Below, piece by piece: positions 21,117 through 53,990 of a stretch of 64,000 nucleotides of DNA. The stretch covers positions 1-64,000 of the forward strand of contig NZ_AUGY01000034.1 of the NCBI RefSeq assembly GCF_000422905.1, written 5' to 3'. The position numbers and the translations under genes are program-made. How positions within the stretch are numbered: the stretch's first letter is position 1; each line of letters starts with the position of its first letter. A model generated the notes under the pieces. That model had not been told where the DNA came from and made no database searches. It was given only the letters and a program-made list of their open reading frames with translations. The stretch is from Paenibacillus alginolyticus DSM 5050 = NBRC 15375 (GTDB lineage Bacteria; Bacillota; Bacilli; Paenibacillales; NBRC-103111).

Positions 21117-21205
21117 AGGGCTTATGCTTATGAGGTAGTTTTCTTCGAAAACGCTGAGCTTGTGCTTACGATGTCTGTTTTGCTAAAGCAAAATCTTAGG
21201 AGGTA
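21117..21205 (+). promoter_or_regulatory. Tandem-hairpin leader element in the PTS 5' UTR (copy 1)
   Basis: Order: TTATGCTTATGA (21122-21133); hairpin GTTTTC-TTC-GAAAAC (21138-21152); TGCTTACGATG (21163-21173); hairpin TTTTGCT-AA-AGCAAAA (21178-21193); CTTAGGAGG (21195-21203), which is the ribosome site of the PTS gene. The same order and nearly the same spacing occur upstream of the nuclease gene at 52122 on the other strand, with paired changes in the stems. It is not a known antiterminator of the GlcT type that I recognise. Probably an RNA element acting on translation. Confidence 0.65.
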
Positions 21206-21213
21206 GCATACGT

Positions 21214-23103
21214 TTGAACTGGATGGGGAACTTACAACAGCTTGGCCGCTCATTAATGCTGCCTACCATTGCGCTTCCTATCGCTGCTGTGTTGCTTCGT
21301 CTAGGGGATCTACCTTGGGATGTCATTCACGCATCTAGCTTAGGGGATATGCTGCTGTTGGCTGGGAATACGGTCTTCGATTATATACCAATTATTTTCG
21401 CTGTTGGTGTGGCGCTAGGCCTTACGGAAAGTGCTGGGATTGCTGGTTTATCAGCCATGCTGGGCTATTTTATGTTCACAAGACTAATTGAACATGAACT
21501 GGGGACTCAATTTCAACTGGGTGTACCGGGTGGGATATTAATTGGATTACTTGCTGCTATTATTTATCATCGCTGTAAAGAAATCAAGCTCCCGGAATAC
21601 ATACAATTTTTCGGTGGTCCCCGCATAGTTCCGCTTATTATGGGGCTGTCCACGCTTGTAGTGTCTTATATTATGATCACTATTGGCCCCTACTTAGAAA
21701 TGGGGATGGGCAAGCTTTCCAATTGGCTGCTTGGATTAGGCGGTATGGGTGCCTTTATTTATGGGATCGCGCACCGTCTTCTTGTACCGTCGGGTCTGCA
21801 TCATATTTTGAATAACTTTTTCTGGTTTCAAGTAGGTGCTTATCGTACGCCAACGGGACATATGGCTTATGGGGATTTACCTAGGTATTTTGCCGGGGAT
21901 CCGACGGCAGGTATGTACATGGCGGGATTGTATCCCATTATGATGTTTGCCCTCCCAGCAATCGCTTTTGCGATTATTGGAGAAGCGCGGGAAGATTTGA
22001 AACCGAAGATTAAAGCGACGTTCTTGACGGCAGCGCTAGCTTCTTTTTTAACCGGCGTCACGGAGCCTATTGAATTTGCCTTTCTCTTCGTAGCTCCGTA
22101 TTTATTTGTTATTCATGCGATTTTGTCTGGAGCAGCCATGTGGTTGGCTTATGAATTGAACATTCAACACGGTTTTTCTTATTCGGCCGGGGCCATCGAC
22201 TACGTCATTAATTTGCACCTATCGCATAACGGTTTATTGCTCATACCGATCGGTATCGTTTATGGGCTTCTCTACTATTTCTTGTTCCGCTGGGCTATTC
22301 GGCGGTTCCAGATTCCTACGCCCGGTAGAGAAGAAGGTTCTTCACTTGAAGAGTGGGCAGGCGATATTCCATATCGATCTCCACTCATTTTGCAAGCACT
22401 CGGTGGGAAAGACAATATTAAGAAGATTGAAGCCTGCATTACCAGATTGCGTCTTACACTTGCCAATGATCGTTTGATGGACATCACGGCATTACGACAC
22501 TTAGGAGCAGCAGGCGTCATCCGTCTTGGAGGAGGCAATGTTCAGGTCGTGTTCGGAACATTCTCAGAGCTAATTCGTGAAGAGATTATGAAAGTATTGC
22601 GCAAAGATATTCATGTGGTGTTATTTACTTCGCCAATGCAAGGACGCATGATTCCGATTGAAGAAGTGCCTGATCGTATCTTTGCTTCGCGTTTGGTAGG
22701 AAACGGCGTTGCTTTTATTCCCGAGAAAGGAGAACTGGTTTCTCCTGTTGCCGGGACCATTATGCACATTTATCCGACGATGCATGCCCTTGGCATCCTG
22801 ACCGAGGAAGGCTTGGAGGTCCTGCTGCACATTGGCATCGATACGTCTAGTTTGCCGGGTAAATGCTTTAATGCAGTAGTTAAAGAAGGCGATCACGTGG
22901 AACCGGGGCAACTGCTAGTTAAGTTTAACTATAATAAAGTTAAAAAATTCGCTTCATCGATGGCGACACCGATGATTATTACGAATCCCGATCTTGTTAA
23001 ATCTTGGAGCTTTGCTCCATTTAAAGCTGTCAAAAAAGGCCAAGGTTCTGTGATGTCTGTTGTCCTAAAGCCTACTAAACAATCGGGGGGGACGAATGGA
23101 TGA
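21214..23103 (+). CDS. PTS glucose/N-acetylglucosamine-type transporter, EIICBA
   Basis: Three-domain phosphotransferase permease, 629 residues: EIIC (about 1-365, many membrane helices, LGRSLMLPTIALPIAAVLL at the start, TGVTEPIEFAFLF near residue 285), EIIB (about 390-470, phosphocysteine in IEACITRLR) and EIIA (about 480-620, histidines in PTMHALGI and LLHIGIDT). It takes up and phosphorylates a hexose, glucose or GlcNAc most likely; I cannot separate them. The start is TTG 21214: the AGGAGG at 21198-21203 is correctly spaced only for it. Overlaps enzyme I by 4 bases. Confidence 0.9.
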   Translation: MNWMGNLQQLGRSLMLPTIALPIAAVLLRLGDLPWDVIHASSLGDMLLLAGNTVFDYIPIIFAVGVALGLTESAGIAGLSAMLGYFMFTRLIEHELGTQFQLGVPGGILIGLLAAIIYHRCKEIKLPEYIQFFGGPRIVPLIMGLSTLVVSYIMITIGPYLEMGMGKLSNWLLGLGGMGAFIYGIAHRLLVPSGLHHILNNFFWFQVGAYRTPTGHMAYGDLPRYFAGDPTAGMYMAGLYPIMMFALPAIAFAIIGEAREDLKPKIKATFLTAALASFLTGVTEPIEFAFLFVAPYLFVIHAILSGAAMWLAYELNIQHGFSYSAGAIDYVINLHLSHNGLLLIPIGIVYGLLYYFLFRWAIRRFQIPTPGREEGSSLEEWAGDIPYRSPLILQALGGKDNIKKIEACITRLRLTLANDRLMDITALRHLGAAGVIRLGGGNVQVVFGTFSELIREEIMKVLRKDIHVVLFTSPMQGRMIPIEEVPDRIFASRLVGNGVAFIPEKGELVSPVAGTIMHIYPTMHALGILTEEGLEVLLHIGIDTSSLPGKCFNAVVKEGDHVEPGQLLVKFNYNKVKKFASSMATPMIITNPDLVKSWSFAPFKAVKKGQGSVMSVVLKPTKQSGGTNG

Positions 23104-35215: not shown

Positions 35216-35349
35216 AAGTTCCAATATCCTCCTTACATGAACCCTAATAGTATACCATAATTGCACCTTATGCGGTAATGATGAACCGAAGAAACGATGC
35301 CGACATGGTTTGACAACACCTAGAAACATGTGATAAATTTTTATCAAAT

Positions 35350-35645
35350 GCGTAGAAAGATCAGCAGTAGGTAGCTTGTGGATGCTTTCAGAGAGCCGGT
35401 GGAGGGTGCGAACCGGTACCTGCAGGTTAGTGAATTACGGTCTTGAGCAGTGGATGGGAACCTGCAGCTACATGAGCTGCACAAGTAGTATTTGCCGATT
35501 AAACCCCGTTAAAGGTTCTTGAGTGAAAATAGCTAGCCGTGCACATAACACCTGTTATAGATGTACGTAACTACTGTTTTAATTAGGGTGGTACCGCGAG
35601 TCAAGTCTTCTCGTCCCTTTGTGGATAAGAAGGCTTTTTTTGTAT
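35350..35645 (+). promoter_or_regulatory. Tyrosine T-box riboswitch upstream of tyrS
   Basis: The T-box sequence AGGGTGGTACCGCG is at 35585-35598, preceded by a long stem I region starting near 35350 that includes AGAGAGCCGGTGGAGGGTGC and ends before the pairing ACCTGCAGG / AACCTGCAG. The likely specifier is TAC at 35436-35438 (GTGAATTACGG), a tyrosine codon, matching the gene. A terminator with arms GTCTTCTC..TCC and GGATAAGAAGGC plus T-run is at 35603-35642; uncharged tRNA-Tyr would favour the antiterminator. Confidence 0.92.
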
Positions 35646-37579: not shown

Positions 37580-37772
37580 AGGAAAAACTCCTTCTTTTCA
37601 ACAATTAGTTTAGTAGATAGCATCTAGATGTCAGGGTGAAGACAAGTGCCTGGTTTTGCTTACGAATCATACTGTGATTCCCTGACAAGAGTAGTTCAGC
37701 CGCTGTCTTGGCAGGAGCAAAAGCAGTGAGGGTGATCACAATTGGCATTCACCGAAATCATGTTGTTACTCG
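37580..37772 (-). promoter_or_regulatory. Structured leader of rpsD, probable S4 autoregulatory RNA
   Basis: On the minus strand the 5' UTR between the promoter and the start is about 195 bases. TGTCAGGG and CCCTGACA, about 40 bases apart, pair perfectly, enclosing a small GAATCA/TGATTC hairpin; a further GC-rich region lies upstream. S4 represses its own synthesis through leader RNA in Bacillus, so this is the expected place. I did not verify the consensus base by base. Confidence 0.55.
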
Positions 37773-37854: not shown

Positions 37855-37930
37855 GAAAAATAGTATGATAATATGAGTTAAGATTTTGCCTGGTTCTATA
37901 GGACTACAGTTTGTTGGTGAAGGAGAGCCT

Positions 37931-51609: not shown

Positions 51610-52122
51610 TTATTTCTTGGTATCGAATGCTTTATCGTAATCCTGCCAAATGCCTTTCTTCTTATTACGGGCTGATTCTTGATCTTTCTTAAAAGCATCT
51701 ACGTACTTGACGTTCGGAGGATATGTAGCCATGCGCGCATACCCCTCTTGAACCAGGGTACGGTTGAACAGTTCTTCACCGATCCATACGTAAACGAGCA
51801 AACGGTCATATTGATCCTTTTTATCTACATCAAATTCAAGCTCGACGGTTTCCTTCTCCAATCGCTTCTTCGTATAAGCACTTGCTTCTTTTCCATAAAA
51901 CATAACGGGTGTATTTGGCTTCTTCGTCTCCGGTGTGTCCACACCAATTAATCGTACTTTCTCTTTCTTCCCCTTCATTGTGACCTCAAGTGTGTCTCCG
52001 TCCACGATACGTTCCACTTTTACACGCTCTCTGCCAGCTACAGCTGCGGGTTTAGTCCCACAAGCCGTCATCAAGATGACTAGACTAAGCAGTACAGCAA
52101 GAGAGATTTTCCATTTGCGCAT
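51610..52122 (-). CDS. Thermonuclease-like (SNase) lipoprotein
   Basis: 170 residues. Signal peptide with lipobox LMTAC, lipidated Cys21, then a staphylococcal-nuclease domain: VDGDTLEV, KVRLIGVDTPET (catalytic Arg and Asp), YGKEASAYTKKRLE and DQYDRLLVYVW (second catalytic Arg), and ALVQEGYAR-type segment. Secreted, membrane-tethered Ca-dependent nuclease. Its leader carries the same tandem-hairpin element as the PTS operon, with CTTAGGAGG as the ribosome site 6 bases before the ATG. Confidence 0.9.
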   Translation of the reverse strand: MRKWKISLAVLLSLVILMTACGTKPAAVAGRERVKVERIVDGDTLEVTMKGKKEKVRLIGVDTPETKKPNTPVMFYGKEASAYTKKRLEKETVELEFDVDKKDQYDRLLVYVWIGEELFNRTLVQEGYARMATYPPNVKYVDAFKKDQESARNKKKGIWQDYDKAFDTKK

Positions 52123-52126
52123 GAAT

Positions 52127-52215
52127 GACCTCCTAAGAGTTTTCCATTAGGAAAACTTGCATCGTAAGCATTGACTGAGTTTTCGTAAGAAAACTTTCTT
52201 CGTAAGCATAAACTG
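52127..52215 (-). promoter_or_regulatory. Tandem-hairpin leader element upstream of the nuclease gene (copy 2)
   Basis: Minus-strand order: TTATGCTTACGA (52211-52200); hairpin AGTTTTC-TTAC-GAAAACT (52195-52178); TGCTTACGATG (52170-52160); hairpin AGTTTTCC-TAAT-GGAAAACT (52157-52138); CTTAGGAGG (52137-52129). The second stem differs from that of the PTS copy (TTTTGCT/AGCAAAA) on both sides while staying paired. A weak promoter (TTGATT, 18 bases, TAACGT) may lie upstream. Confidence 0.65.
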
Positions 52216-52307
52216 TGTTTTTCTTTAAGTATGTTTTAGACGTTAGCATGACGGGGATGTTTAAATCAAGTGCTTTCCTTTCATACTAGGAAAAAAGGAG
52301 GCAGCAC

Positions 52308-53990
52308 ATGATTGCCATGGATCCTACCCGTCCTCTGATTGTTCAGAGCGATTTATCGATATTAGTGGAAACGAATCACCCTGAATTTGATACGGTTAGA
52401 GGGACAATATCCCGGTTCGCAGATTTGATCAAAAGCCCGGAGCATCTTCACACGTATCGGATTACGCCATTATCGCTGTGGAATGCATCAGCTGCTGGGA
52501 TGCCAATAGAAGAAATGTCGGATTTTTTACAACGAAATGCCAAATTTGGTGTTCCTACCGGGGTACTAAGCATCATACGTAAATATGTGAAGCGGTATGG
52601 CATACTGCGTATGGAGAATGTTGGAAATGAGCTCTATCTAGTTAGCGATGATACAGTCGTGTTAAAAGAAATTAGCGCTTACGATTCGTTGAAGAGGTAT
52701 CTAGAGGATACTCGCGGAGAGCGCGCTATTGCTATTTCTCCGATTTCACGCGGTGTCTTGAAGCAGGAGCTTATCAAGCTGGGGTATCCCGTAGAAGATT
52801 TGGCCGCTTATCGCAGCGGCGAGTTTCTTCCGATTCAGCTTCGGAAGGAAGATACGATGGAAGCCCCGTTCCAACTGCGAGATTACCAAAAGCATGCTGT
52901 AGATGCTTTTAACCGTGTCGGAGAAGGCGGCAGCGGTGTGTTAGTGCTTCCTTGTGGAGCGGGAAAGACAGTGGTTGGCATAGCTGCGATGGCCAGATGC
53001 AACTGTGCAACGTTGATTCTGACAACAAATGTGACTTCGGTGAAGCAGTGGAAGCGTGAGATTTTGAGCAAAACGGGCTTAGCGGAAGATCAGGTAGGGG
53101 AATATAACGGCACTACGAAGGAAGTAAGGCCTATTACAATTGCAACTTATCAGATTTTGACGCATCGCGGGAAGAAAGAAGACGAGTTCTCGCATATGCG
53201 GCTGTTTAGTCAGAGAGACTGGGGTCTGATTATTTATGACGAGGTTCATCTTTTGCCAGCCCCCGTTTTTCGGGCTACAGCAGAGATACAAGCGACACGC
53301 AGGCTCGGATTAACGGCTACTTTAATTAGGGAAGACGGCCGAGAAGAAGATGTTTTCTCACTTGTGGGGCCGAAGAAATATGATATGGCTTGGAAAGAGC
53401 TTGAGTCGAAGGGCTGGATAGCAAAGGTCGCCTGTAAGGAATTTCGAGTGTCTCTATCGGCTTTCGATCGGGATCGTTATGGAGCCTCGGGTGCTAGGCA
53501 GCAGTTCAGGATTGCTGGAGAAAATACCGCTAAACTAGAGGTTATTGACTACTTATTGCGGCTTCATGCGAACGAACAGACGTTAATCATCGGTCAATAT
53601 ATTAGTCAGTTAGAGCTTATCGCTGCCCATACCGGCGCGCCCATGATCAGCGGCGGAGTAGCGCATGAAATCCGAGAGGAGCTATACGACCAATTCAAAA
53701 AAGGTCAGGTGCCTCTCCTTATTGTATCCAAGGTTGCCAATTTTGCTGTCGACCTGCCCGACGCCGTCGTAGCTATTCAGGTGTCGGGCAGTTATGGTTC
53801 GCGGCAAGAAGAGGCGCAGCGGCTTGGGCGTATCCTTCGTCCTAAGAGCAGCGGCACGAACGCAGCGGTTTTCTATTCTCTGATTAGTGAGGATACGAAG
53901 GAGCAGGACTTTGCTATGAAAAGGCAGTTATTTCTAGTTGAGCAGGGCTATGAATATAGCATAACAAGTTGGAATCAAACGACGAAATGA
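52308..53990 (+). CDS. XPB/Rad25-type DNA helicase
   Basis: Superfamily 2 3'-5' helicase, 560 residues. N-terminal accessory domain at about 7-98; helicase core with Q-motif-like LRDYQKHAVDAF, Walker A CGAGKT (216-221), DEVH (311-314), the XPB-specific RED loop after TATLI (341-343), and motif VI QRLGRILRPK. Bacterial XPB proteins are thought to act in DNA repair or transcription-linked remodelling. AAAGGAGG is 8 bases before ATG 52308. The next gene follows 16 bases after the stop and shares the N-terminal domain, so the two probably form one complex. Confidence 0.92.
   Translation: MIAMDPTRPLIVQSDLSILVETNHPEFDTVRGTISRFADLIKSPEHLHTYRITPLSLWNASAAGMPIEEMSDFLQRNAKFGVPTGVLSIIRKYVKRYGILRMENVGNELYLVSDDTVVLKEISAYDSLKRYLEDTRGERAIAISPISRGVLKQELIKLGYPVEDLAAYRSGEFLPIQLRKEDTMEAPFQLRDYQKHAVDAFNRVGEGGSGVLVLPCGAGKTVVGIAAMARCNCATLILTTNVTSVKQWKREILSKTGLAEDQVGEYNGTTKEVRPITIATYQILTHRGKKEDEFSHMRLFSQRDWGLIIYDEVHLLPAPVFRATAEIQATRRLGLTATLIREDGREEDVFSLVGPKKYDMAWKELESKGWIAKVACKEFRVSLSAFDRDRYGASGARQQFRIAGENTAKLEVIDYLLRLHANEQTLIIGQYISQLELIAAHTGAPMISGGVAHEIREELYDQFKKGQVPLLIVSKVANFAVDLPDAVVAIQVSGSYGSRQEEAQRLGRILRPKSSGTNAAVFYSLISEDTKEQDFAMKRQLFLVEQGYEYSITSWNQTTK

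Follow-up and report, generated by a model that had tools for sequence, protein, structure and literature searches.

Many copies of one RNA module, which is composed of a conserved linker and a hairpin, adjoin the ribosome-binding sites of at least 60 unrelated genes in the genome of Paenibacillus alginolyticus DSM 5050 (8.33 Mb, 214 contigs). The leader family formed by these copies is common to many Paenibacillus species and to some other genera of the order. One of them lies before a nuclease lipoprotein gene in the window, i.e., the 64,000-nt stretch of contig NZ_AUGY01000034.1 that was analysed, and this nuclease leader is the visible edge of a large family of leader elements for which no description was found in Rfam or in the literature searched.

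The Leader of the Nuclease Gene

The leader is located on the minus strand (52209–52138) and consists of two linker-plus-hairpin units, the last hairpin ending 3 nt from AGGAGG; read on the minus strand, its sequence is TTATGCTTACGAAGAAAGTTTTCTTACGAAAACTCAGTCAATGCTTACGATGCAAGTTTTCCTAATGGAAAACTCTTAGGAGGTCATTCATG. The linker of unit 1, ATGCTTACGA (52200–52209), was assigned by sequence and family comparison and is followed by the hairpin AGTTTTC-TTAC-GAAAACT of 7 bp with the loop TTAC (52178–52195), which was assigned by family covariation. The linker of unit 2, which is again ATGCTTACGA (52162–52171) and was assigned in the same way as the first, is followed by the hairpin AGTTTTCC-TAAT-GGAAAACT of 8 bp with the loop TAAT (52138–52157). 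The Shine–Dalgarno (SD) sequence AGGAGG (52129–52134) comes 3 nt (CTT) past this second hairpin, and the gene itself, with its ATG at 52122, occupies 51610–52122 of the same strand and encodes a lipoprotein with a staphylococcal nuclease domain (Pfam SNase, E = 3e-29), in which a lipobox-like MTAC can be recognized by eye. That is to say, the minus-strand coordinates bear out the first-pass annotation, which had read the leader as two repeats of a linker plus hairpin before the nuclease lipoprotein gene; it had also counted TTACGA three times, one of them in the first loop, and indeed the second of the three overlaps the loop of unit 1.

Upstream of the leader, orthologue comparison revealed a block TTGATTTAAA...TGCTAACGT (52240–52269, minus strand), which is conserved in nuclease-gene orthologues both with and without units. 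Because this block is conserved and a divergent helicase gene begins at 52308, it is most likely the promoter region of the nuclease gene, and the leader would hence lie inside the transcript; a scan for consensus promoters at the nuclease leader found no promoter. The folding z is −5.5 for unit 2, −1.2 for unit 1 and −0.9 for the whole 111-nt leader. Folding alone is weak evidence; it is repetition and covariation that support the hairpin.

A second leader of two units, the first of them divergent, was detected by BLAST and the covariance model on the plus strand (21122..21204), with a folding z of +0.2, and it is followed by a PTS EIIC/EIIA/EIIB gene (21214–23103, plus strand). The window contains the sequence TGCTTACGA 4 times, where shuffled sequences average 0.42 copies and 1 of 100 shuffles reached 4 or more; a solitary copy without a hairpin is located at 37657–37665, upstream of a frame at 37886. 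When the whole window was searched with Rfam 15, no family exceeded its gathering cut-off at the leaders, and the sole match was a T-box leader outside the studied leader (35344–35621, plus strand, 106.1 bits). In the segment 52060–52360, three Rfam matches appeared at E ≤ 10, all far under their cut-offs. A riboswitch or another catalogued RNA was rejected for want of an Rfam match.

Architecture of the Repeated Unit

The consensus of the unit is AUGCUUACGA[A/U]GNN followed by the hairpin [AGUUUU(N)...(N)AAAACU], and one to seven copies stand in tandem. Over all loci, the end of the hairpin is separated from the SD by 2–3 nt in 213 of 217 distinct SD-adjacent units, and neighbouring units are spaced at 38–42 nt in 130 of 140 pairs. 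Where the spacer is 4 nt long (215 units), G3, C4, U5, U6, A7, C8, G9, A10 and G12 of the linker are kept in 208–215 units (G9 in 213, A10 in 210 and G12 in 212), as counted with a search expression that tolerates 3 mismatches and slightly flatters the conservation.

The stem of the unit covaries. In 34 terminal units of the own genome, standard pairs fill 95.2% of the pair cells, against 88.4% after shuffling, and the paired cells, the double-change cells and the covariation score were above every shuffle; the number of pairs changed on both sides was 2, which was reached by 136 of 500 shuffles, and the count of pair types was reached by all 500. In an alignment of 90 matches from many genomes (86 distinct), which was fitted to the covariance model and therefore leans toward the structure, 6 of 8 pairs change on both sides, with 78 such cells and 96.9% of cells paired. 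On four of five measures, none of 500 shuffles of this alignment was as high, the pair types being reached by 19, and in slid controls the pairing falls to 31–66%. Moreover, among 49 pairs of orthologous one-unit leaders, which were found with an expression that favours intact units and are mostly hslU rows and not independent, all 28 changed stem pairs are double changes, and the identity is 88% in the linker, 67% in the 5′ flank and 87% in the coding sequence. In the stem, the second and third U-A pairs (columns 18–65 and 19–63) keep U-A in 86 of 86 and 84 of 85 cells, a constancy that points to more than pairing being recognized.

In other genera, the loop has grown to about 25–35 nt through a variable insert, and the outer stem is kept (L314, L296, L303 and L309). 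Because the outer stem survives loops of this size and remains paired around them, a spaced DNA operator hardly fits, and a CodY-type or any other DNA operator was rejected; the spacing of CodY operators, moreover, probably differs from that of the units. Loci L304 and L306 likewise show a loop of about 25–35 nt with the outer stem unchanged. A possible small helix in the linker, GCUU-ACG-AAGY (alignment A3, columns 3–13), in which 89.8% of cells pair, is unsupported, its covariation being equal to that of shuffles (155 of 500 as high). The idea that the linker pairs with rRNA, considered by reading, was set aside: a match to 23S in L308 has no counterpart in L312.

Copies in the Own Genome and Their Genes

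A BLAST search of the own genome with the 104-nt leader gave 44 matches at E ≤ 0.001. By reading, 38 loci and the two in the window follow the same plan, namely at least one linker-plus-hairpin unit, an AGGAGG-like SD and a start codon; the linkers are degenerate in some loci, L046 has AAGGAG after its unit but no clear start codon, and L045 carries a second linker without a hairpin ahead of its SD. A pattern that leaves out the SD, GCTTACGANGNNAGTTTTN{3,8}AAAACT, likewise has 44 matches, against 0 for the reversed pattern: 28 of them are followed directly by AGGAG, 15 by a further unit of an SD-ending leader and 1 by a variant SD. With the covariance model of the terminal unit, at least 131 matches were obtained, internal units counted in, and this number is a lower bound because 150 of 5440 candidates were scored. 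Relative to the SD, the units of the own genome stand in one orientation only. Nine clusters without an SD were judged by eye, four as chance (L020, two in L038, and L041), two as belonging to SD-ending arrays (L037 and L045) and three as real exceptions (L030 on the minus strand, L110 and L114). In the last two, the units without an SD directly after them are located at L110:751–862 and L114:747–776.

Of the 66 SD leaders counted in the loci of the own genome, 45 have one unit and the other 21 have two to four, in a count that keeps overlapping loci in and in which degenerate units are missed by the expression. Among 63 tabulated rows, which hold one gene twice (L106 and L107 overlap), 30 downstream proteins were compared with NCBIfam, and their functions are unrelated. 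The best matches, several of them under the curated cut-off, include gpsA, glgD, pyrR, hslU, rsmH, accC, miaB, leuA, gltD and addB, as well as ruvB, recJ, carB, leuD, pyrF, nusB, sigE, pyruvate dehydrogenase beta, a Kbl-type acyltransferase, transporters and a response regulator; at the NCBIfam threshold, 3 of the 30 (L024, L029 and L044) had no match. The idea of a regulon was rejected, there being no coherent function among the 30 proteins examined.

In terms of gene order, 52 of 65 own-genome leaders lie behind a co-directional frame, and so do 80 of 108 leaders of named species; for SD genes without units in the same DNA the figures are 20 of 28 and 62 of 93, and the operon position of the leaders is at most mildly enriched. 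Seventeen of the 52 own-genome leaders begin no more than 20 nt past the stop codon of that frame, and for this reason they are very probably transcribed by read-through.

Distribution in Other Genomes

When 40 genomes, that of the window among them, were searched with the SD-free pattern, 26 of them yielded 540 exact matches, and 347 matches run into AGGAG within 1–4 nt; the reversed controls gave 0 in both counts. The covariance model matches 45 of 60 genomes, comprising 30 of 30 in the genus (own included in both), 7 of 7 in the family's other genera and 8 of 23 in the order's other families, and these counts are lower bounds because 106 candidates were scored per genome. In a class-wide sample of 398 genomes, with 16 candidates scored per genome and the counts again lower bounds, at least 38 match the model at E ≤ 1e-6: the own genome, 1 genome of the same family, 32 genomes from a single other family of the order, and 4 more distant ones that have one match apiece. 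In the exact-pattern scan of named genomes, the 80 matches listed out of 110 come from Paenibacillus species and from two metagenome bins, one of Bacilli and one of Paenibacillaceae; P. chondroitinus NBRC 15376 is among the named genomes with units. The leaders of named species, which were picked by the exact pattern, have one unit in 50 of 120 and two to seven in 70; here too, overlapping loci stay in the count and degenerate units escape it. No match of the units was found in IMG/VR, phages or plasmids, and a phage or plasmid origin was rejected on this basis.

Units were also found at rRNA genes, directly before 5S rRNA in genomes G037 (L302 and L308) and G035 (L312), and therefore the element does not depend on translation initiation as such. 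In G035, three reversed units (L305, 1501–1614, minus strand) border directly on a 23S rRNA gene at its 3′ end, and no such units are present at the 23S end of another rRNA copy (L312). Further matches with equal scores in G037 may be other rRNA copies.

Inheritance, Gain and Loss of Units

The number of units before the nuclease gene varies across orthologues, as counted by eye: 2 in the own genome, 3 in G015, 2 in G003 and 1 in G002, 2 units plus a hairpin-less linker in G028, 1 unit plus a hairpin-less linker in G025, remnants in G001 and G016, and none in G018. In some remnants, the sequence looks as if it had been deleted from the linker's TTACGA to that of the loop, both of them copies of the repeat noted in the first-pass annotation. 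Upstream of the nuclease gene of G021 (L126), a unit is found on the opposite strand, in front of the divergent helicase gene, and the nuclease leader there has no unit of its own. The hslU leaders have 1–3 units in the own genome and five close relatives, whose proteins are 96–100% identical. On a tree of 30 hslU genes, the presence of units can be explained by 3 changes, whereas shuffles require 9.2 on average and 0 of 500 were as low; unit presence at hslU is inherited over long divergence.

Among 47 length differences between aligned orthologous leaders, 28 measure 38–42 nt and 9 measure 76–82 nt, and therefore whole units come and go. An apparent empty site was also seen: in P. planticolens (L232) a 69-nt insert carries one unit, and P. 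chondroitinus (L255) goes straight into CTTAGGAGG. There is no clear target duplication in this one good pair, which a case in P. silvestris (L181) resembles. Only one Y1 transposase (Y1_Tnp) is encoded in the own genome, and in its locus (3279 bases) three linker-like matches with at most 1 mismatch were seen, none with a hairpin by eye. A REP/RAYT element was rejected, as the sole Y1 transposase gene is not flanked by units. In L299 and L313 (G052) and in L307 (G058), a palindrome-like stretch comes before the unit, and AGG(C) and a further repeat-like stretch (ACGCTTCGCT-like) come after it; this may be a composite repeat of another kind.

Possible Functions of the Unit

The reading favoured here, put forward tentatively and with limited confidence, is that the units may serve as a portable cassette for mRNA maturation and stabilization. 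An endonuclease, for which RNase Y is the best candidate, would cleave the linker close to or at the G-A step (G9-A10), which is almost invariant and lies 5 nt upstream of the stem. The hairpin, now standing at the fresh 5′ terminus, would then block 5′-to-3′ exonuclease decay and keep the adjacent SD free for ribosomes, so that the cistron would gain its own level; extra units would be spare cut and shield sites, and the gain or loss of units would tune the output. We infer the cleavage, the identity of the enzyme and the stabilizing effect from the sequence. The pattern calls for an element that would act at the RNA level, depend on linker and stem, stand at the 5′ edge of a functional RNA part (the SD or 5S rRNA), be independent of the gene and be repeatable, and the cassette would fit this. 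The fixed gap between hairpin and SD, the covarying stem with its outer part kept around enlarged loops, the almost invariant G9, A10 and G12, the leaders behind co-directional frames, the units before 5S rRNA (which can have no part in initiating translation there) and the inherited presence at hslU all argue for it.

As reported in PMC11780869, RNase Y of Bacillus subtilis prefers a G|A step in an AU-rich single strand, often with structure downstream, and the downstream hairpin of cggR-gapA mainly stabilizes the cut product against exonuclease, both of which favour the cassette. As at the RNase Y sites of cggR-gapA and glnRA (PMC11780869), the units by their sequence have a GA step in a single strand and then a stem. 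In contrast to the weak and spread-out motif of those sites, however, the units are strongly conserved, genome-wide, in tandem and abut the SD; a linker consensus far stronger than this motif, with C and A at −2/−3 instead of the preferred uridines, counts against RNase Y. In the cip-cel operon of Ruminiclostridium cellulolyticum, according to PMC10311766, the intergenic stem-loops are both cleavage signals and stabilizers in selective RNA processing and stabilization, the same double role as proposed for the units, but this concerns one operon, and the cuts often fall beyond the stem-loop on its downstream side or at its 3′ end. Against the cassette it must also be held that operon position is not clearly enriched and that some leaders, such as that of the nuclease gene, seem to own a promoter region, with no operon to mature. 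In addition, a transcriptome study of P. riograndensis, a species that may or may not carry units, searched the 50 bp ahead of 1173 genes and is reported to have found the RBS motif alone (PMC5670726).

A sequence-specific factor is a likely reader of the units, given that conservation of the linker and of the stem's U-A pairs exceeds the needs of pairing. Whether this factor would be an RNA-binding protein that controls the translation or mRNA fate of the at least 60 genes, with extra units raising its occupancy, is a different matter, and we regard this as possible but somewhat doubtful. The conservation beyond pairing in the linker and in the UUU/AAA stem segment, the constant distance to the SD and the tandem units speak for such a protein. 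The first-pass annotation had deduced a multi-site binder, such as an RNA-binding protein, rather than a single ligand pocket. Its latter half is supported, in that the repeated unit does not look like a ligand pocket; as to the former, the repeated unit with its regular spacing is real, but several sites are not required. The count of units per leader across genomes, which it had proposed as a check, gives two or more in 70 of 120 named-species leaders and one in the other 50, to which the one-unit majority of the own genome is added; a multi-site binder is possible, not required. The lack of a regulon among the 30 proteins and the units before 5S rRNA also weigh against an RNA-binding protein. 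The leaders targeted by CsrA/RsmA have hairpins near the SD and several sites per leader, each with the core ANGGA. The units resemble them in having hairpins near the SD, several per leader, but differ in having no conserved GGA in the linker or loop: by eye, no GGA occurs there as a rule, it otherwise occurs in the SD, and ACGGA arises only in a subset of units with a CC..ACGG stem. The gene of CsrA, the only candidate examined, is present in 59 of 60 genomes, whether they carry units or not, and so gives no sign of following the units.

The rapid turnover of units and their position beside rRNA genes count against the cassette in that they would also fit a mobile repeat. REP/BIME and the pneumococcal BOX elements are short palindromic units at many intergenic sites with a modular unit number; the units studied here are likewise short, palindromic, intergenic and modular in number, but they have a fixed orientation and lie 2–3 nt from the SD, and no partner transposase was found. 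It is unlikely, in our judgement, that the units are a selfish or semi-selfish REP-like hairpin repeat inserting before GG-rich targets, mostly SDs, with selection keeping the tolerated copies. The apparent empty site (L232/L255) with its likeness in L181, the length differences of whole units and the reversed units at one of the 23S copies of G035 are consistent with such a repeat, but the single Y1 transposase locus without a unit, the one orientation relative to the SD, the hslU leader inherited with few changes and the lack of matches in phages, plasmids and IMG/VR are not. A combination of these ideas sees in the unit a lineage-wide, gene-independent second signal attached to the SD: a mobile unit would insert at AGGAGG-like sites, form tandem copies there and be retained as a tunable expression cassette that a dedicated RNA-processing or RNA-binding factor recognizes. 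As a whole, this too is rather unlikely.

It is improbable that the unit is a factor-free element of translation initiation, whose hairpin would shield the SD against upstream RNA and place the 30S subunit; the constant gap and the SD lying outside the stem would agree with this, but the conserved linker and the units before 5S rRNA would be left unexplained. An upstream open reading frame, in which the linker starts with ATG (the nuclease copy reads MLTMQVFLMENS, with the stop in the SD), is largely refuted and deserves hardly any credence: ATG is found in 156 of 217 distinct SD-adjacent units and 88 of the 156 stop before or at the SD, but 61 of 217 have no ATG, the frame passes the SD in 68 and shifts with hairpin length, so that neither ATG nor frame is conserved.

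Significance

A conserved RNA module at no fewer than 60 unrelated genes, at a fixed distance from the SD, implies a global post-transcriptional layer that is undescribed in the literature searched. Since the number of units differs between close species, they offer a natural dose series for the effect of a hairpin beside the SD on expression, and the unit could serve as a part for tuning expression.
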